Shown here piece by piece: positions 929 through 9,428 of a DNA stretch of 64,000 nt. The stretch is from positions 1 through 64,000 of the forward strand of contig NZ_JMKI01000036.1 in NCBI RefSeq assembly GCF_000712295.1. The letters are read 5' to 3'. The notes beneath the pieces were generated by a model, which did no database searches, was not told where the DNA came from, and saw only the letters and a program-made list of their open reading frames with translations. Origin of the DNA: Synergistes jonesii (lineage in GTDB: Bacteria; Synergistota; Synergistia; Synergistales; Synergistaceae). Made by a program: the position numbers and the translations under genes. Position 1 is the first letter of the stretch; every line of letters starts with the position of its first letter.

Positions 929-1717
929 TTATACCCCGTACTTATTGCCGATCTTATCGAGAGACAGCCTCCAAGGCTTATAGGCGTCGGCCGCCTTCAT
1001 CTCGCCCCAGGCGAGCTCGTTCATACCGCTAGGGGTGGCGTTGGCCGACATGAAGGCGTCTATATCATCCGTGCAGTCCATGCGCATGAGCTTGGAAAGG
1101 GCCTCGTTCATGAAACAGGTGTAATCCATGGCCGATCTGAAATCCATCCCCCTGCTCATACACCAGCGGACGATTTCTCCAACCAAGCCGTAATAGGGGA
1201 CCATTACGCCGGTGACGGCCGCCAGCACCTCAAGATCTTTCTCCCTTTCCACCTTGACGATCGCGCCTACGAGGGAGAGCAGGCTCTCGCTCAATCCGTC
1301 GTCGCCGAAGAGGACGACGGGGCCGATCCTGCGGGCCGCAAACGAAAGAGGCACGGCCCTGACCATAGCCTGCGCCGGAGAGAACCATGGCGCCGCCTGG
1401 GCGAGCTTTACGGCGGCGGCCAAATGAATGATATGATGCCGTCGCTCGAACTTCAGTCTGGGTGCGACCTTTTCAAGCGCCGTCGGCACTATCGCTGGAA
1501 CTATTACCTGCGCATTGTCTACGACCTCTTGGTCCGAAGAGACGACAACTATACGATCCGGGTAGTCCGCCTTCACCGCCTCGGTCTTCTCGGTGTGGTG
1601 GTCGTAGACATAGACCATGCCCTTGAAGCCGTCGGACGAACAAAGCCCACGCGTCAGCGCTGAAGCTATGCCGCCGCAGCCGATGAATCCCACATCTGCT
1701 TTTACACTGTCGTTCAT
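929..1717 (-). CDS. Pyrroline-5-carboxylate-reductase-like NAD(P)-dependent oxidoreductase
   Basis: The 262-aa protein starts with a Rossmann fold (GFIGCGGIASAL, residues 10-21). Its size and helical C-terminal half match the ProC family, which reduces pyrroline-5-carboxylate to proline. The conserved C-terminal loop of true ProC, usually TPGGTT, reads ATPSGMNE here, so the substrate may differ. The start is at 1717 rather than 1738: a GGAGGTG site lies 5 bases upstream of 1717. It is the last gene of a leftward operon with an RpiR regulator, a glycyl radical enzyme and its activase, so it probably reduces the enzyme's imine or keto product. The exact reaction is unknown. Confidence 0.72.
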   Translation of the reverse strand: MNDSVKADVGFIGCGGIASALTRGLCSSDGFKGMVYVYDHHTEKTEAVKADYPDRIVVVSSDQEVVDNAQVIVPAIVPTALEKVAPRLKFERRHHIIHLAAAVKLAQAAPWFSPAQAMVRAVPLSFAARRIGPVVLFGDDGLSESLLSLVGAIVKVEREKDLEVLAAVTGVMVPYYGLVGEIVRWCMSRGMDFRSAMDYTCFMNEALSKLMRMDCTDDIDAFMSANATPSGMNELAWGEMKAADAYKPWRLSLDKIGNKYGV

Positions 1718-1749
1718 AATTGCACCTCCGTTTTTCACGCTGTCAAGCG

Positions 1750-2616
1750 CTACAGCTGCTTGACGAAATTATAGTCTTTGTAGACGAACATATCGGTGGT
1801 GAGTATATCCTTCTCATACTTCTCAAGCATCCCCCTTATCCGATCCGAATGCTTCCTGTACATGGCGACCATAAGGGAATGTATAAGCGCCATCGCAGAG
1901 GCGCTGGCATCGGCGAGGATTATGTACTTCTGCGGCGTCAGCAGCGTATACTTTGCGAAGGGTACGATAGGAGACAATTTGCTGTCGGTCATCCCTATAA
2001 CGGGGACTTTTTTCTCCGAGAGCATCTCCGTTATCGTCTGTACCTCCTGCGAATAGCGCGGATAGCTGAAGACTAGCGCGCATGATTTTTGCCCGGCGTT
2101 CCTCAGCAGAGAGAGAAATTCCATGTCCCTCTGGCTGACGACGCGAACGTTGTCGCGGAAACCGCACATGAAGTTGCCCGCGTAGAAGGCCAGAAAATTA
2201 TGTATCGGGCCGCCCACGAGCATCACCTGATCTGCCTCAAAAAGCATCTCCGCGGATTTTTCAAAAATTTCCTGCTCCATGTTTTCCAAGGCCTCCCGCA
2301 TGAGCTCCATCTCCAGATCAAAAACCTTTTGGTAGACGGAGTTATTTGAATCGAGATAAGGCTCCTGGCGGAATTTCATTTCTTGATTCCTCAGCGTTTC
2401 CTTGCGCAGCTCGGTGTGAAAATCGGCGAAGCTCTCAAACCCCAGCGTATGGACGAAGCGCGTGAGAGTGGCTTTGCTCACCCCGGCGCGGCCGGCTATC
2501 TGCGGCGCGTTCATCATCGCCGCCTCGAAGATATTGTCTACGATGAATTTACCCAACAAGTTTTGCTTCTTGCTGAGAGTTTCAGAGATGGAGAGGATTC
2601 TTTCGCTGATGCTCAT
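1750..2616 (-). CDS. RpiR/MurR-family transcriptional regulator with SIS domain
   Basis: The 288-aa protein has an N-terminal helix-turn-helix of the RpiR type (about residues 1-77, with AGRAGVSKATLTRFVHTLGF) and a C-terminal sugar-isomerase (SIS) domain (about 110-250, beginning near VMLVGGPIHNF). RpiR regulators usually bind a phosphosugar or an acidic catabolic intermediate through the SIS domain. It lies inside the operon between the activase gene and the reductase-like gene and most likely controls that operon. GAAA-N6-TTTC sites in the dctP promoter region are candidate operators. A GGAG site precedes the ATG. Confidence 0.88.
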   Translation of the reverse strand: MSISERILSISETLSKKQNLLGKFIVDNIFEAAMMNAPQIAGRAGVSKATLTRFVHTLGFESFADFHTELRKETLRNQEMKFRQEPYLDSNNSVYQKVFDLEMELMREALENMEQEIFEKSAEMLFEADQVMLVGGPIHNFLAFYAGNFMCGFRDNVRVVSQRDMEFLSLLRNAGQKSCALVFSYPRYSQEVQTITEMLSEKKVPVIGMTDSKLSPIVPFAKYTLLTPQKYIILADASASAMALIHSLMVAMYRKHSDRIRGMLEKYEKDILTTDMFVYKDYNFVKQL

Positions 2617-2708
2617 CTTTTCCTGGCTCCTTTGGCTTTAAGTTGTCGCATTGCTGAACTTAAATTTTAAAGGCCGGAAACATCAAAGTCAACGAACTGC
2701 GCTGCCTC

Positions 2709-3623
2709 TTAATACGCGATCTTCAGCTGCACCCCGTTCAGCTTTTCGAGGGGGTATATTTTGTTTTCCATATCGCTGCGCGACGGCGGCGTCAATTCGG
2801 GAAAGGGGACCGGACGCCCTAAATTTTTGTAGGTTTCGATCCCCAGCCTGTGATACGGCAGGACCTCAACGACGGAAAGGTTTTTCAGCCCCGAGCAGAA
2901 TTCCGCCATCGCTTCGTAATTCTCAACATTGTCGTTTACCGTTGGGACGAAAGGGACTCTCAACGTGATATTGGTCGTGCCGGCCGCGTCTATTTTCCTT
3001 ATATTTTCGAGAATGATTTTATTCTCAGCGCCTGTATAGCGAAGATGCTTCTGCGCGTCCATCATCTTTAAGTCTATAAAGATATTCGGAAGATAATCAA
3101 GCAGCGGCCTTATCGTCCTCCACTCAGCGAAGGCGCAGGTTTCGATCGTCCTGTCTATTCCCAGGTCGGCCGAGCCCTTCAGCACGGCAAGCGCAAATTC
3201 CGGCTGCATCAGCACCTCGCCACCGCTCAGCGTGACTCCTCCGCCGTGGTGGAAAAAGATGTCGTCTCTGGCTATCTCTTCTACCAGTTCGTCGGAGGAG
3301 AAGTCCCTGCCGTAGAGCCGCACCGCGTCGTGCTGGCAGATCTGCACGCATCTGCGGCAGCCGCTGCACCCGCCGCCAGAGGAGATCGTTCCGCGCTCCG
3401 CGTCGCAGAGTATCTGCCCCTCGGGGCAGACACTCTCGCATTGTCGGCAGAATCTGCACAGAGAACGGACGAACCCCACCTCGAAATAGACGCTCTGTGA
3501 CTCAGGCGTCGAACACCATTCGCAGGAGAGGGGGCAACCCTTGAAAAAGACGACAGTTCTCAAGCCATGGCCGTCTTTATTCGACGAGCGTTCAATGCGC
3601 AGTATCCTGCCCTTGACTGCCAT
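2709..3623 (-). CDS. Glycyl radical enzyme activase (radical SAM, PflA type)
   Basis: The 304-aa protein carries the radical-SAM motif as CPLSCEWC near residue 30 (Cx3Cx2C, ligating the SAM-binding 4Fe-4S cluster). Two ferredoxin-like clusters follow (CRFCRQCESVCP near 57-68 and CSGCRRCVQIC near 86-96), an arrangement found in activases of non-PFL glycyl radical enzymes. The core motif GGGVTLSGGEVLMQ is also present. It installs the glycyl radical on the enzyme encoded 10 bases upstream in the same operon. Start chosen at 3623 with AAGGAC upstream. Confidence 0.93.
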   Translation of the reverse strand: MAVKGRILRIERSSNKDGHGLRTVVFFKGCPLSCEWCSTPESQSVYFEVGFVRSLCRFCRQCESVCPEGQILCDAERGTISSGGGCSGCRRCVQICQHDAVRLYGRDFSSDELVEEIARDDIFFHHGGGVTLSGGEVLMQPEFALAVLKGSADLGIDRTIETCAFAEWRTIRPLLDYLPNIFIDLKMMDAQKHLRYTGAENKIILENIRKIDAAGTTNITLRVPFVPTVNDNVENYEAMAEFCSGLKNLSVVEVLPYHRLGIETYKNLGRPVPFPELTPPSRSDMENKIYPLEKLNGVQLKIAY

Positions 3624-3633
3624 ATTTTTGTCC

Positions 3634-6009
3634 TTACTCCATTTCCGTGATCATCGTTCTTGAAATAATGTCGTCCTGGACATTCTTGTCAAGTTCCACG
3701 AAGAATGCTGTGTATCCGGCAACCCTTACAAGCAGCCCCTTGTAATTTTCAGGGTGCTCCTGCGCGTCAAGCAGCTTCTTTTGATCGACGACGTTGAACT
3801 GCACGTGGAAGACGCCCAGCGAGCAGAGCCCTTTGAGCAGGCTCATCATAGCCGCCATTCCTTCGCTGCTCTTGAGGAAATCCGGCATAATCTTCATATT
3901 GAGCAATGTGCCCTGCATGAACCTGTCGTGCGGAATGTTTGATATCGACTTTAAGATCGCCGTCGGTCCCTCCATATCAGTGCCGCACATCGGGCTCAGG
4001 CCGTCGCTGAGCGGCTTCCACGCCACGCGTCCCGACGGCAGCGCGCCGACTTCGAGGCCGAAAGGCGTATTGCCCGAGACTGGAAGTATGCCGGGGCTCA
4101 TCGTCCCCATATGGCTTCTGTAGCTTTCGATCTCGTCCGCGATAAAGGTGAAGAGCTCGGCCCCCATTTTGTCGACCCATTTGATATCGTTGCCGTATTT
4201 TGGCGCATCAAGGCATAGCTTGCGGATTTCCGGCTCATTTTCAAAGTTGTCGGCGAGCGCGGTCAGCAGCTTCTCCATTGTTATCTTCTTCTGTTCGAAG
4301 ACAAGAGTCTTCACTGCGGCCAGGCTGTTGATCAGGTCTGCGACTCCAATCATGTCGATCCCGTTGCCGACGTGATATTTTGCTCCGCCGTCCGTATAGT
4401 CGACCGCGTTTTCAACGCACTCGCGGTGCGTCAACGAAAGCGTTGGCACGGGGCGCTTCTTGCTGATAAAATCGCAGATATGGCTAGCTTTGACAAGACA
4501 CTTGATGCCGTAGCAGATCTGCTTCTTGACCGCTGCTTCGAATTCCTCATACGAAGAGAAATCCGTGGGATCCCCCGTTTCAATCGAGATGAGCCTGCCG
4601 TATTTGCGGGAGACGCCGTTCAGCAACGTGAGCTCCACCATCTCGCCGAGGTTCAGGTCGGCGAAGGCCGTGAAGCCGCACATCTTACCCTCGAGGTTCG
4701 TCTCTACGCAGCCGCAGGGGTTCCAGTTATAGGCCTCGCGAAGCGGCACTCCCTTGTTCATCATCATCTGGGTGCCGACCTCGTCGCAGTGGAACGCTGG
4801 GAAGCCCGTACCGAGGCTTATGAGTTCTACGATCTTCTTTAAGAAACTGTTGGGATTCTTGGACATGCTGTAACGGACGGAGAGCGACGGTTGGTAGAGC
4901 TGGACGTCCATCGTTGCCTGCAGCAACATATAGGAGACTCCATTCACTGCGTCGCTTCCGGTATGATCTATGCCGCCCGCGCAGATATTCTGAAACATCG
5001 GGTATCCGGCTGAGAACTGAGCCGAGACGTAATCCTGGAAAAGGCAGGGCTCCGAGAGCTTGACCCAGAGGCAGTCAAGTAGCTCCTGCGCCTCGTCCTG
5101 GGTTATGCGTCCGGCCTCGAGATCCGCCTTATAGAAAGGATAGAGATACTGGTCCATCCTACCCATGTTATAGCTGGCCGCGTTTTGCTCCATGATTATC
5201 ACGATGTGGTAAAGGTAGGCTGACTGCACGCCTTCATGGAAGGTCTCAGCTGGATGCTCGGGAACCTTGGCGCAGATCTTTGATATCTTCAGCAGCTCTT
5301 CCTTACGGCGCGGATCCTCTTCTATTACAGCAAGGCGAAGCGCTTCTTCCGAATAGCGCCTTGCAAGCGCCACCACGCCATTGGCCGAAGCCAGCAGCGC
5401 CTTGTAATAGATGATCTTCTCGTAATCTCCAGGTACCGCGATGTCGAGCTTCTCCATCTTTTTTAAGATACGTTCGCGCACTGCGGCTATCCCTTCGTTG
5501 ATGACGTCGGTGTATCCTGCCGTCACCTCGCCCCAGCCTCTGACGAACTTTCTGTCGGTGAACACCGCCCCGCACTCCTTGAGCTTCTTCACATCCTCTG
5601 GGACCTGAGCCACCCAGTTTTCATAGATGGATTTGCCCTTCCAGAAAGGTTTTATCACTTCTCTGAACAGTTTCTTTTCCTCTTCCGAAATATAAAAGGG
5701 ATCGTAGCGTCTGGTGCTGATCGTCTCCAATTCGTTATCTAAGACTGACCAGCAGCTGTCGGCGGAGACGATGCCGCCGCGTATCTTGCTGCCCGAACAG
5801 CCGACTATCAGCTCCTGCGGCCAGATGGTGACGCTCTTGTGCTCGCACTGATACTGGACGCCCTTTGCCTTTTGGAGGACAAGAGGCAGCCCCTCCGTCT
5901 CTTTGAAGCTCTCCGTAAGCAGCTTTGCGCACTCAAGGTCTACCTCCGGGCGGGTGTTCAACACTCTTTCCTTAAGGAAATCGATTCTTTTCATGTAATC
6001 TTTTTGCAT
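3634..6009 (-). CDS. Glycyl radical enzyme of unassigned specificity (eliminase-like)
   Basis: The 791-aa protein has both hallmarks of the family: a thiyl Cys in CGCVET (Cys434, with Glu436 two residues on) and the glycyl loop RVAGYTAFF (Gly765). The GCVE motif is typical of dehydratases and lyases such as glycerol dehydratase, CutC and hydroxyproline dehydratase; pyruvate formate-lyase has adjacent cysteines instead. Neighbours are a TRAP transporter upstream and an activase, RpiR regulator and reductase-like gene downstream, indicating uptake and anaerobic breakdown of a small organic acid or amino-acid-like substrate. Hydroxyproline dehydratase is attractive because of the ProC-like neighbour. 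From memory, however, the Asp and His that bind hydroxyproline do not seem conserved (Ala near 278, no His near 160). Substrate left open. Confidence 0.9.
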   Translation of the reverse strand: MQKDYMKRIDFLKERVLNTRPEVDLECAKLLTESFKETEGLPLVLQKAKGVQYQCEHKSVTIWPQELIVGCSGSKIRGGIVSADSCWSVLDNELETISTRRYDPFYISEEEKKLFREVIKPFWKGKSIYENWVAQVPEDVKKLKECGAVFTDRKFVRGWGEVTAGYTDVINEGIAAVRERILKKMEKLDIAVPGDYEKIIYYKALLASANGVVALARRYSEEALRLAVIEEDPRRKEELLKISKICAKVPEHPAETFHEGVQSAYLYHIVIIMEQNAASYNMGRMDQYLYPFYKADLEAGRITQDEAQELLDCLWVKLSEPCLFQDYVSAQFSAGYPMFQNICAGGIDHTGSDAVNGVSYMLLQATMDVQLYQPSLSVRYSMSKNPNSFLKKIVELISLGTGFPAFHCDEVGTQMMMNKGVPLREAYNWNPCGCVETNLEGKMCGFTAFADLNLGEMVELTLLNGVSRKYGRLISIETGDPTDFSSYEEFEAAVKKQICYGIKCLVKASHICDFISKKRPVPTLSLTHRECVENAVDYTDGGAKYHVGNGIDMIGVADLINSLAAVKTLVFEQKKITMEKLLTALADNFENEPEIRKLCLDAPKYGNDIKWVDKMGAELFTFIADEIESYRSHMGTMSPGILPVSGNTPFGLEVGALPSGRVAWKPLSDGLSPMCGTDMEGPTAILKSISNIPHDRFMQGTLLNMKIMPDFLKSSEGMAAMMSLLKGLCSLGVFHVQFNVVDQKKLLDAQEHPENYKGLLVRVAGYTAFFVELDKNVQDDIISRTMITEME

Positions 6010-6076
6010 ATGGATTACCTCCCTGTGTTGTCAGATGTCTATCTGTTTACCAAATAAATGACATTTAATGAACCAA

Positions 6077-7369
6077 TTATCCCAATATCAGCTTCGGAAG
6101 CCACAGTGCAAGGTCGGGGAAATATGTGACGGCTATCAGAGTAGGCAGCCAGCAGGTGACGAGCAGGATTATGTCGGTCTTGAGCATCCCCGAAAGCGGA
6201 GTCTTAGTCACTTGGATGCCGAAGTAAAGGGCCGGGGCCGTCGGCGGTGTCAGGAGCCCGATAGCTACGTTTACACCCATGATTGCAGCAAAGTGTATGG
6301 GGTCCACACCGAAACTCTGGACGACGGGAAGAAGGATCGGAGTGCCTAGGAGCAGGCAGCTCGTGTCGTCCATTATCATTCCCATTATCAGCACCACTAT
6401 ATTTACACCTAACAGAATTACATTCTTGTTGTTTGAGAAGCTTCTTAAGAAGTCCGCGATCAGACCGGGCATATCTTCCATGATGTAGATACGGCTGAGC
6501 ATCATTACGCAGAAAATCATCACCATAATCACACCTGTGGTGGAGGCGGTCTCGACAAAGGTCTCGTACAGCTTTCTGAGCGTTAATTTTTTGTAGACGA
6601 AGAATCCTATGGGGATGGAGTAGATTATCGCGACAGCGGCTGCTTCGGTAGGCGTAAATGTGCCGCTGTAGATTCCTCCGAGGACGATGACGGGCATAAG
6701 GATCGCGGGAAGTGCCGAGAACGTGTCGTCTCTTGCCGCAGCCAGGAATTCTCTGGGCGGCATCTTCGCGCGTACCTTGATATTAGGGTCTTTTCTCAAT
6801 ACTATCAGGCTCACGACCGAGAGCAGGAGCACAAGCAGCAGCCCCGGACCGACTGTGGCGAGGAAACACGCAAGAAGCGGCTGTCTGCCGGCCCATGAAT
6901 AAAGGATCATGTGGGCGCTCGGCGGTATGAGCAGCCCGAGAGGACAGGCGCATGTGATCAAGGTCGCGACGTAGTCCCTCGGATATCCGGCCTCCTCAAA
7001 CCTCGGCATCATAATGCTGCTGATACACGAAAGCGTCGCCAGGCTGCTGCCGGCGATGGAGCCGAAGGCTGCGCAGGCCACGACCGCGACGACCGCAAGG
7101 CCGCCCTTTATACGGCCGACAAATATCCCGACAAAATTGACGAGTGACTTGCCAATGCCGCTCTTTTCCATAACAAGGCCGACGGCGATAAAAAGCGGGA
7201 CGCAAAGCAGTACTAATGAGTTGCAGACGCTGTATCCGTACTTCATAAGAAAACTGCTTTCGTAGCCGCCGGCATGAATCATGAAAAGGGCGGAGAGGAC
7301 AAAAACGTACGGCAGGTATATCCCGCTCAGAAGACCTAAAATAATTATTCCAACCGCGACTATAAGCAT
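6077..7369 (-). CDS. dctM: TRAP transporter large permease (DctM type)
   Basis: The 430-aa, strongly hydrophobic protein has about 11-12 membrane segments and the usual length and motifs of DctM/SiaM subunits, for example FGSIAGSSLATLSCI and the repeated GLLIPPSAHM and GLLTPPTAPALYFG. It is the sodium-coupled translocation subunit of a tripartite periplasmic transporter in the inner membrane. Its ATG overlaps the dctQ stop as TGATG, which implies translational coupling. With dctQ and dctP it probably imports the substrate of the glycyl radical enzyme encoded 67 bases downstream. Confidence 0.95.
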   Translation of the reverse strand: MLIVAVGIIILGLLSGIYLPYVFVLSALFMIHAGGYESSFLMKYGYSVCNSLVLLCVPLFIAVGLVMEKSGIGKSLVNFVGIFVGRIKGGLAVVAVVACAAFGSIAGSSLATLSCISSIMMPRFEEAGYPRDYVATLITCACPLGLLIPPSAHMILYSWAGRQPLLACFLATVGPGLLLVLLLSVVSLIVLRKDPNIKVRAKMPPREFLAAARDDTFSALPAILMPVIVLGGIYSGTFTPTEAAAVAIIYSIPIGFFVYKKLTLRKLYETFVETASTTGVIMVMIFCVMMLSRIYIMEDMPGLIADFLRSFSNNKNVILLGVNIVVLIMGMIMDDTSCLLLGTPILLPVVQSFGVDPIHFAAIMGVNVAIGLLTPPTAPALYFGIQVTKTPLSGMLKTDIILLVTCWLPTLIAVTYFPDLALWLPKLILG

Positions 7370-7920
7370 CAGCGTTCTCCTCCCACCATACCCAGGCCAT
7401 CGTCGCCATTGTTTTCATAGATGTCCTCTAACAGCTGAACGACAACGTAAAAAGCCATAAGCACAAATCCAACGGTCACGGCGCACATGGACGTAATGAG
7501 AGGGATTCCCCAAGCGGATGTGGTAGGCCATATATTTATACCGTTGATGATATATGCAATCGAAAGCCTCATGGTCTCCAAAGCGACAAGCACTTGGACG
7601 ACGTCGGCAAATATCCTCAGAATTCTTTGTCCGCGAAGCGGCAGCATCCTCTCAAGAAGGTCCACTTTGACGTGCTCGCGCTTTTCCATGGCATAAGAAC
7701 TGCCGATAAAATACATCCAGAACGCGGATATCATTACGATTTCATCAAACCCGAAGAGGTCGACTCTGAGGATGTATCTGCAGACGACTACGAGTCCGAG
7801 AATAGTCACCATCGCGCATGTAGTTATAAAAAGTATATATTCCTGTATACGGAGCAGTAACTGCCAGGGGCTTGATCTCTTTAACTGCATCAGACGGTAA
7901 ACAATCTCTTCGCTACTCAT
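7369..7920 (-). CDS. dctQ: TRAP transporter small permease (DctQ type)
   Basis: The 183-aa protein has four predicted membrane segments, as in DctQ subunits. It contains the typical patch where EKREHVKVDLLERML follows the second segment. It links DctM to the binding protein. The start at 7920 is preferred over 7992 because a GGAGGA site lies just upstream and the first 24 residues of the longer version show no family features. It sits between dctP and dctM. Confidence 0.92.
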   Translation of the reverse strand: MSSEEIVYRLMQLKRSSPWQLLLRIQEYILFITTCAMVTILGLVVVCRYILRVDLFGFDEIVMISAFWMYFIGSSYAMEKREHVKVDLLERMLPLRGQRILRIFADVVQVLVALETMRLSIAYIINGINIWPTTSAWGIPLITSMCAVTVGFVLMAFYVVVQLLEDIYENNGDDGLGMVGGER

Positions 7921-7997
7921 GATATTTCCTCCATAACCTTTTAATCCGCCTGGCCCATACTTCTGAAATGGCATAGGCCAGGCAAAAATCATCTCGC

Positions 7998-9053
7998 TTA
8001 TTTTTTCCCCGATAGTACCTTCTTCTGGTTTGCAACTACGGCGTCTTCAAGAACCTTCAGTGTATCCTTGCCATAAGTGTCCGCGTATTTTGGCCAGACA
8101 TTGGCGCGTATCTCGGCGCTACGTTTGATGGCTTCTTCGCTTGAGTACCTGATAACCTTTACGCCATGCTTCTCAAGTTCATCCTCGTACTTCTTTTCAG
8201 TTCCTCTAGCGACGGGCAGCCATTTTTTTATCTGGAAGGCGATGCAGTCCTGCACGATCTTCTGATTTTTGGGGCCGAACGATTCCCACAGCTTTTTGTT
8301 TATTATGAGCCAGCCGGGGGTTGACCCCATGTTGTTCGCATCAAAACATTTGATCATATCGCGGGCCTGCAGGTAGGCGTCCTCTGCAGGTATATTCGAA
8401 GCGCCGTCTATCTGTCCTGTCTGCAGCGCGCTGAAAACTTCAGAGTAATCCATCGTCACGGTGTTGTACCCCATTGCGGTCGCCATATCGCGGACAGAGG
8501 GCATTGCGGGGACTCTTAGAGAGATATTTTTTTTCAGATTGTCCTTGGGATTTTTGGGGACTTTGGAAAGGATGAATCCTATGCGAGGGTCAAGCCATCC
8601 GCCGAGGCTTACAAATCCAGCCTCATTTGAATATGTTTCGATGATTTTGCAGAAAGGCGACTTAGGGTCGAGAAACATAAGTTCGTACTCTGGAAAACCC
8701 GTGGTGCACAACCCCGGGAGGTTTCCGATATCGAGCTTCGGGTGATATCTTTTAGTGAGCCACGTGAAAGACGCGTCTATCGTTCCCGCACGGACTTCTT
8801 CAATTGAATCTTCATAAATGCAGAGCTGCCCCGAAGGGAATACTTTGAAATCGATTTCCCCATCCGTTTTTTCCTTTATCATCTTTACCAGGTCGACGAG
8901 CGCTTTGCTTGTATAGCTATCTGAGGGATATGGCGCGTAAAATTTCAGCTTCCTGGCGGCGTGGGCCGCGTTTTCACTTATGATTATCGCTAAAGCGGCT
9001 ATCATCACTATGCTGCAGACACAAATAACCTTTTTGATATTATTGATGTTCAT
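7998..9053 (-). CDS. dctP: TRAP transporter periplasmic substrate-binding protein (DctP type)
   Basis: The 351-aa protein begins with a signal peptide (hydrophobic stretch near residues 8-25, likely cut after AAHA). It continues as a DctP-family extracytoplasmic binding protein with the usual elements, such as VFPSGQLC near 70 and ALQTGQIDGASNIP near 210. DctP proteins bind carboxylates or sulfonates, often through an Arg salt bridge; SLRVPAM near 180 is a candidate for that region. It is the first gene of the operon and presumably fixes transport specificity. A GGAGGT site lies 11 bases before the ATG. Confidence 0.95.
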   Translation of the reverse strand: MNINNIKKVICVCSIVMIAALAIIISENAAHAARKLKFYAPYPSDSYTSKALVDLVKMIKEKTDGEIDFKVFPSGQLCIYEDSIEEVRAGTIDASFTWLTKRYHPKLDIGNLPGLCTTGFPEYELMFLDPKSPFCKIIETYSNEAGFVSLGGWLDPRIGFILSKVPKNPKDNLKKNISLRVPAMPSVRDMATAMGYNTVTMDYSEVFSALQTGQIDGASNIPAEDAYLQARDMIKCFDANNMGSTPGWLIINKKLWESFGPKNQKIVQDCIAFQIKKWLPVARGTEKKYEDELEKHGVKVIRYSSEEAIKRSAEIRANVWPKYADTYGKDTLKVLEDAVVANQKKVLSGKK

Positions 9054-9230
9054 CGTACATAAAACCTCCGTCTTTATTTTTTAACCTGACAAAAACATGT
9101 AACCACAGCTACGGCGCTGGATAGCGACGACAGGACAACTCCCTCCTCTTCAATAATATATTTTTAGCCGTATTTCCTTGCACTCTTAGATTAACATAAA
9201 GAAACAATAATTTCAAGAGCATTTTGGTAA
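9033..9230 (-). repeat. Tandem duplication unit A: dctP 5' end plus promoter region
   Basis: This roughly 198-bp unit is repeated directly next to itself at 9231-9428. It holds the first codons of dctP, its ribosome-binding site, the 5' leader and the promoter. Matching landmarks include a shared run around GAAACAATAATTTC (9201-9214 here, 9399-9412 in the other copy), the CCTCCGTC site and the block ending in ATTTTGG. The copies differ at many positions, so the duplication is not recent. Confidence 0.85.
9188..9216 (-). promoter_or_regulatory. Predicted promoter and operator of the TRAP / glycyl radical operon
   Basis: On the minus strand TTGAAA (9216-9211) and TAATCT (9193-9188) are 17 bases apart. 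The -35 box overlaps the imperfect palindrome GAAATTATTGTTTC (GAAA-N6-TTTC, 9201-9214), a form similar to RpiR-family operators. The predicted start near 9181 gives a 5' leader of about 130 bases. The same palindrome in the upstream repeat copy supports a regulatory role. Binding by the operon's RpiR protein is inferred. Confidence 0.5.
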
Positions 9231-9428
9231 TTTGATATTATTATTGATATTCATCATACATACGGACCTCCGTCCTTACTTTTTTAACCCCAGATAAATG
9301 AGCGTAACACAGCTGTAGTGCTGAATTCTTAAGGCAGGATACCTCTCCTCTTCGATATATTTTTAGTCATATTTCCTTCCCTTTTAGGGTAACATAAAGA
9401 AACAATAATTTCAAGTATATTTTGGAAA
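9231..9428 (-). repeat. Tandem duplication unit B, with an abortive copy of the dctP start
   Basis: Second copy of the dctP leader unit. On the minus strand an ATG at 9254 with an upstream GGAGGT repeats the dctP start and then runs into a stop after about a dozen codons (NINNNIKLPK-type sequence). Read-through transcripts from this copy would therefore carry an extra short ORF before dctP. The operator-like motif is kept at 9399-9412, while the -10 region has drifted (TACCCT instead of TAATCT). Confidence 0.8.

Follow-up and report, generated by a model that had tools for sequence, protein, structure and literature searches.

The stretch of DNA analysed here, referred to as the window, comprises positions 1 to 64,000 of contig NZ_JMKI01000036.1 of the gut-type anaerobe Synergistes jonesii (assembly GCF_000712295.1), i.e. 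the start of contig C36 in a genome of 2.74 Mb with 60 contigs and 99.85% completeness; genomes, contigs and loci carry G, C and L numbers in the following, G000 being the window's own genome. At positions 929-9053 the window contains a leftward operon with a glycyl radical enzyme (GRE) of the GCVE type and a ProC-like reductase, and all seven genes reported for it in an initial annotation, made from the sequence without database searches, are present:

7998..9053, minus strand: dctP, solute-binding protein of a tripartite ATP-independent periplasmic (TRAP) transporter (PF03480, 98 bits against a cut-off of 23.4; NF037995, 102.5 against 50)
7369..7992, minus strand: dctQ, TRAP small permease (PF04290, 74 bits against 28.3)
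6077..7369, minus strand: dctM, TRAP large permease (TIGR00786, 329.8 against 268.45; PF06808, 272.1)
3634..6009, minus strand: GRE, predicted N-methyl-cis-4-hydroxy-L-proline (or cis-4-hydroxy-L-proline) dehydratase (best Protein Data Bank, PDB, match 8id1; PF02901 and PF01228 above cut-off)
2709..3623, minus strand: radical SAM GRE activase (TIGR02494, 280 against 174.35)
1750..2616, minus strand: RpiR-type regulator with HTH_6 and SIS domains (PF01418, 33.2, and PF01380, 41.4, each above cut-off)
929..1738, minus strand: ProC-like, PRK06476-type predicted imine reductase with the loop TPSGMNE (NF005063, 149.4, below the cut-off of 254)

The genes are closely spaced, with 5 nt between dctP and dctQ, a 1-nt overlap of dctQ and dctM, 67 nt between dctM and the GRE gene, 10 nt from there to the activase gene, 92 nt—the widest gap—between the activase and RpiR genes, and 11 nt before the ProC-like gene, or 32 nt if the latter begins at the ATG at 1717, which agrees better with the starts of its orthologues and is the likely start. 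The TRAP transporter is complete, its PF03480, PF04290 and PF06808 genes being adjacent and all above cut-off. The search for the same gene set elsewhere, recommended in the initial annotation, revealed all seven genes in identical order in two further Synergistaceae genomes, G016 (L028) and G021 (L029), with DctP proteins 83% and 78% identical to that of the window, respectively, so that the set is not a chance assembly. A scan of genome contigs with a single protein found one locus, L007, which lies on the same G021 contig (Synergistaceae) as L029. In G016 an open reading frame (ORF) on the opposite strand, LysR-like by eye, intervenes between the RpiR and ProC-like genes, and the reductase gene may therefore be transcribed apart there.

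With regard to the GRE itself, alignment bears out its catalytic motif (C434-V435-E436, i.e. GCVE) and Gly765. By profile the protein belongs to the CXE-type GREs; it scores above the subfamily cut-off of TIGR01774 (691.9 against 678.2), but reaches neither of the equivalog cut-offs for CutC (TIGR04394, its top NCBIfam match, 720.1 against 1050) and HypD (NF043068, 598.4 against 1100). The closest solved chains by sequence are 8id1 and then 8iof, entitled in the PDB as the N-methyl-cis-4-hydroxy-L-proline dehydratase from Intestinibacter bartlettii and the N-methyl-cis-4-hydroxy-D-proline dehydratase from Clostridium sp. FS41, respectively. The identities are 62.6% (over 784 residues) to 8id1, 50.2% to 8iof, 41.1% to CutC and 35.2% to HypD; since in a published GRE network known activities are parted by edges at about 60% identity (Nat Commun 2019;10:1609), the window GRE falls just inside the 8id1 group. 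The motif continues as GCVET, as in 8id1, and is shared with 8iof as GCVETNLEG, the type of reaction being likely the same in the latter. The structural model (mean predicted local distance difference test, pLDDT, 85.7) gave template modelling (TM) scores of 0.95 to 8id1 and 0.96 to 8iof, and VIA-align did not separate the two, whose Z-scores lay within 1 of each other (48.8 and 49.8), a CutC chain falling in between (48.9).

The active site bears out the statement in the initial annotation that residues contacting hydroxyproline in HypD seem to be absent. The study of HypD (eLife 51420) gives H160, D278, D339, S334 and F340 as essential and Y450 and T645 as important for binding, and reports no activity for the variants H160Q, D278N and D339N. 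At these positions (H160, D278, D339, S334, F340, Y450 and T645) the window GRE has E161, A278, M338, S333, F339, D451 and V644, so that, although it shares with HypD the pairing of a GRE dehydratase with an enzyme of the P5C (delta-1-pyrroline-5-carboxylate) reductase family, it is without the acid/base residues and two carboxylate ligands of the latter. Over 21 positions—the HypD contacts and their neighbours with the invariant catalytic residues included, rather than a contact list of 8id1 itself—the window GRE matches 8id1 at 20, 8iof at 15, HypD at 9 and CutC at 8. Five active-site loops are identical to those of 8id1 at 103 of 135 positions, the remainder of the protein at 388 of 650. 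The description of the enzyme as unassigned and of the operon as a new anaerobic route, made without considering the 8id1 group, is thus not supported; the GRE is most likely one more member, and possibly a variant, of the kind of dehydratase described in 2024, and not an example of new chemistry. The literature searches yielded no paper joining glycyl radical with Synergistes or Cloacibacillus, none naming at least two of 8ID1, 8IOF and glycyl radical and, for Synergistes jonesii and hydroxyproline, only an unrelated review.

The ProC-like protein was modelled with high confidence (pLDDT 93.6) in the full-length P5C reductase fold that it shares with 2ahr (TM 0.80 over 265 columns) and human PYCR1 (TM about 0.8), although its identity to these proteins is just 18-20%; besides NF005063, it also remains below the cut-off of TIGR00112 (59.1 against 196.75). 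The substrate loop of ProC usually reads SPGGTT. That of the E. coli enzyme, compared here by its description, bears Thr235-Thr236 (PMC12899673), whereas the window protein has TPSGMNE without the Thr-Thr pair, as had been noticed from the sequence. The change was rejected as evidence for a new substrate, because the form TPxGxNE/D is present in 17 of the 18 subfamily sequences (the window's included), among them a copy beside ornithine transaminase; this transaminase was profile-tested in L078 and recognized by the ORF start in L079 and L080. ProC-like matches at 1e-20 or better were found in 18 of 185 Synergistota genomes, and the neighbourhoods of 19 of the 22 listed matches were compared, i.e. 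five linked to a GRE and 14 others (G012:C13, G050:C116 and G040:C54 were left out); no GRE was found beside any of the 14. In the reductase tree, from which—as from the loop comparison—the truncated L083 was omitted, the five GRE-linked reductases form one clade (92/91; 96/98 with two further rows) apart from the transaminase-linked paralogues.

Searching with the window protein detected no second reductase copy in the genome, and no match to P5CR_dimer (PF14748), present in 12 of 14 control genomes, was found either, the window's own ProC-like protein being missed by this profile as well. ProA and ornithine transaminase also gave nothing above cut-off in the genome. The reductase is therefore without an evident biosynthetic source of P5C, and a role for it in proline biosynthesis is unlikely; given six genes of the ornithine cyclodeaminase (OCD) family in the genome, proline could possibly be made by the ornithine cyclodeaminase route. 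The simplest reading is a dedicated role of the reductase on the product of the GRE.

To see in what company related GREs occur, 22 loci with a GRE at least 50% identical to that of the window were compared, namely 21 of the at least 29 matches listed by the search (fragments included) and the plasmid locus L099, some of them cut by contig ends. The eight listed matches left out include those in G086, G046, G027 and G045, genomes without a ProC-like match, and in G020 and G002, where the ProC-like gene is on other contigs; L048, L049, L051, L052 and L095-L097 were not among the 22, their GRE being below 50% or absent. A gene was counted as present if matched by tblastn at 1e-10 over half of the query. 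The ProC-like gene is found in five of the loci, which constitute one GRE group with two operon layouts, and was not found in the other 17. The first layout, with dctPQM and RpiR, is that of the window, G016 and G021. The second, with a GRE 67% identical to the window's, is represented by two sister operons (L030 and L031, from G022 and a second locus of G016) consisting of genes for an SDR-family protein, a prolidase-like amidohydrolase (closest to 3mkv, 3feq and 2qs8 in the PDB), a YfcC/DcuC-type carrier (PF03606 above, NF008611 below cut-off), the ProC-like and an HbpS-like protein, the GRE, its activase, a GntR regulator and a ProXp-ala-like tRNA-editing protein (PF04073, 79 bits against 25.5; PDB match 5vxb). 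Two of their features are:

L030 5161-6399: prolidase-like amidohydrolase, near the GRE; L031 likewise
L030 12662-13955: ProXp-ala-like protein, near the GRE; L031 likewise

Elsewhere among the 22 loci the partners of the GRE are different. Genes for a methyltransferase (MTTB) or a carrier of the betaine type occur in four of them: L036 combines RpiR, MTTB, a B12-binding (corrinoid) protein, dctPQM, a GRE of a clade found in tandem pairs and a URO-D protein; L045, with a GRE 77% identical to 8id1, has dctPQM and RpiR together with MTTB and an OCD-family protein (NCBIfam PRK06199, tyramine oxidase subunit B, above cut-off) where the window has the ProC-like reductase; and L046 and L047, with GREs that the tree places in the 8iof group, each encode an octopine-dehydrogenase-like protein and a BCCT-like carrier, the one in L046 being below the curated BCCT cut-offs. 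L046 also encodes a P5C dehydrogenase (TIGR01236, 683.4 against 613.6), and OCD-like genes at 24-27% occur in L042 and L043, too. Since members of this GRE family are paired with different reductase-type genes or P5C dehydrogenase, a P5C-like product fits them, which the OCD-family and octopine-type proteins would reduce.

Based on the above results, the operon probably serves the catabolism of an imino acid of the cis-4-hydroxyproline type, among which N-methyl-cis-4-hydroxy-L-proline is favoured because of the title of 8id1 and the MTTB-linked relatives. DctPQM would import the hydroxyproline-type substrate, and the activase would place the radical on Gly765 of the oxygen-sensitive GRE, from where it would pass to Cys434. 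The latter is expected to take the hydrogen next to the ring nitrogen, with water then leaving from C4 to give the N-methyl-delta-1-pyrroline-5-carboxylate iminium—a dehydration as in HypD, presumably with a different acid/base set. The ProC-like enzyme could reduce this iminium with NAD(P)H to N-methyl-L-proline, and RpiR may control the operon. The suggestion that the radical product is an imine is thus retained, as a cyclic imine is probably handed to the reductase. Demethylation might take place elsewhere, since MTTB is encoded three times on other contigs of the genome, at 27-31% identity to the MTTB of L045; for D-proline reductase as a sink, PrdA gave nothing above cut-off. The proposed pathway would place the use of N-methyl- or cis-hydroxyproline in the Synergistaceae, beside HypD, an 8iof-like GRE and a tandem GRE pair, and would link imines of radical origin to the PRK06476 type of ProC-like proteins, a subfamily that is poorly defined.

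Several observations weigh against this reading. The initial annotation had asked whether the enzyme clusters tightly with a characterised group and keeps all its substrate residues, and this holds in part: the identity is just above the network value and 20 of the 21 positions agree with 8id1, but the loops differ from it at the remaining 32 of 135 positions, with F449 and L452 for two Tyr and F155 for Ala. In addition, the window clade, the pair of 8id1 and a G050 sequence (100/100), the 8iof group and the tandem clade all branch from one open fork of the tree, which therefore does not place the window enzyme nearer to 8id1 than to 8iof. A single origin of the ProC-linked GREs has a support of only 71/98. 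It should also be pointed out that the 21-position comparison shows the class and separates substrates poorly, because the GRE of the sister clade (L030) shares 19 and that of the tandem clade (L037b) 17 of these positions. The function of 8id1 is taken from the title of the PDB entry and that of Jiang et al. (ACS Catal 2024;14:4407) as given in a reference list. A divergent ProC could escape the PF14748 search, as the window's ProC-like protein does. Finally, the tblastn comparison detected neither MTTB nor a BCCT-like gene at the five GRE loci that have the ProC-like gene, and the N-methyl group therefore has no support from their immediate gene neighbourhood.

The last point equally suits a possible, clearly less probable alternative, in which the operon would act on an unmethylated proline analogue, e.g. 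cis-4-hydroxy-L-proline, converted by the GRE to P5C and by the ProC-like enzyme to L-proline. P5C is also the product of the ornithine transaminase beside which a paralogue of the reductase is encoded, and the prolidase-like, carrier and ProXp-like genes of the sister operons suit an analogue with a free NH, one that can be in a peptide or charged to tRNA, and not an N-methyl compound. It may tentatively be supposed that the GREs of the window and of the sister clade dehydrate such a free analogue, the sister prolidase-like enzyme freeing it from peptides and the ProXp-like protein clearing mischarged tRNA-Pro; the sister operon could possibly be a module for both resistance to and use of a proline analogue. 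If so, radical dehydration, peptide release and tRNA proofreading would be joined in one proline-analogue pathway. To our knowledge, although no search was aimed at this activity, no GRE has been published for the dehydration of a free proline analogue such as cis-4-hydroxy-L-proline. A literature search found no paper combining ProXp, hydroxyproline and editing. Against the unmethylated substrate stand the title of 8id1, the closest characterised enzyme, which names an N-methyl compound; the editing gene, not found within 20 kb of the window operon; and the amidohydrolase, which also matches arginine carboxypeptidases and others and scores 215.3 against an NCBIfam cut-off of 500. Moreover, G016 keeps both operon types, a hint at two different substrates.

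The remaining explanations are much less likely. Related ring chemistry with a different substrate—C-N ring opening of the HplG type, or the use of hydroxypipecolate or 3-hydroxyproline—would agree with the several loop residues in which the window clade differs from 8id1, yet it is improbable: HplG (7vua) is only 28% identical, for which ring opening of its type was rejected, and a ProC-like reductase fits an imine and not a ring-opened keto acid. That the GRE is a HypD acting on trans-4-hydroxy-L-proline is still less credible and was rejected, even though the same overall chemistry is expected and the partner is of the ProC family; its profile score is below the HypD cut-off, the residues H160, D278, D339, Y450 and T645 are replaced as given above, and a true HypD, scoring 1119.4 against 1100, is encoded elsewhere in the genome (G000:C2 118038-120374, L048). 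No ProC-like gene was found in the 19.9 kb around this HypD, which the window reductase may serve, too. Least credible of all is a CutC-like C-N lyase of choline or another quaternary amine, which was likewise rejected: CutC is the top NCBIfam match, but the score is under its cut-off, the identity is 41% with 8 of the 21 positions shared, the operon has no microcompartment gene, and the ProC-like reductase would have no evident role.

Besides the HypD, the genome contains several other GRE loci. The nearer relative of 8iof (66%) is a separate gene at G000:C6 29337-31700 (L046 9269-11725), by the octopine-dehydrogenase-like gene, the P5C dehydrogenase, the BCCT-like carrier and TRAP-like genes, and this locus likely represents a pathway for the D-isomer. 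A tandem GRE pair at G000:C12 44055-48813 (L037 8047-12847), 33% and 64% identical to the window GRE, is followed by an activase gene; such pairs were also found in at least G001, G016, G021, G022, G029, G055, G065, G081 and G092, and the two enzymes may work in series. A further GRE at G000:C51 27466-29823 (L049 9452-11884), below all NCBIfam cut-offs, has genes for an SDR-family protein and an activase as its neighbours. The three MTTB loci, on contigs C31, C2 and C54 of G000 (L095, L096 and L097), each have a neighbour that is corrinoid-protein-like by eye; at the C54 locus there are, in addition, TRAP-like genes and one resembling octopine dehydrogenase, and at that on C2 a BCCT-like carrier. 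L099 (11998-15155), on a 985 kb plasmid of Enterococcus raffinosus, encodes a GRE together with its activase; this GRE is 62.6% identical to that of the window and 65% identical to 8id1. MFS carriers and a protein related to the phenylalanine-tRNA ligase beta chain are encoded nearby, and the ProC-like gene was not found in this stretch.

As for DctP, its solved relatives are many and distant (the best at 75.5 bits) and gave no clue to the ligand, and a PADLOC scan produced no match. Two further features flank the operon:

9038..9428, minus strand: duplicated leader before dctP (repeat families D1-D4), with copies about 200 nt apart in which the dctP start is repeated as well
77-805: IS256-type transposase gene, incomplete (it covers profile positions 1-194 of 338), near the operon end and close to the beginning of contig C36

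The leader repeat includes an identical stretch of 26 nt, which may hold the promoter or an RpiR operator. Among the matches listed, the duplication was not seen upstream of the orthologues, and the leader shares only 10-14-nt matches with L029 and none with L028. Concerning the transposase gene, an ORF with the same start is present at the end of contig C31 (L095 11341-12226), and the assembly probably broke at this IS256-type repeat.

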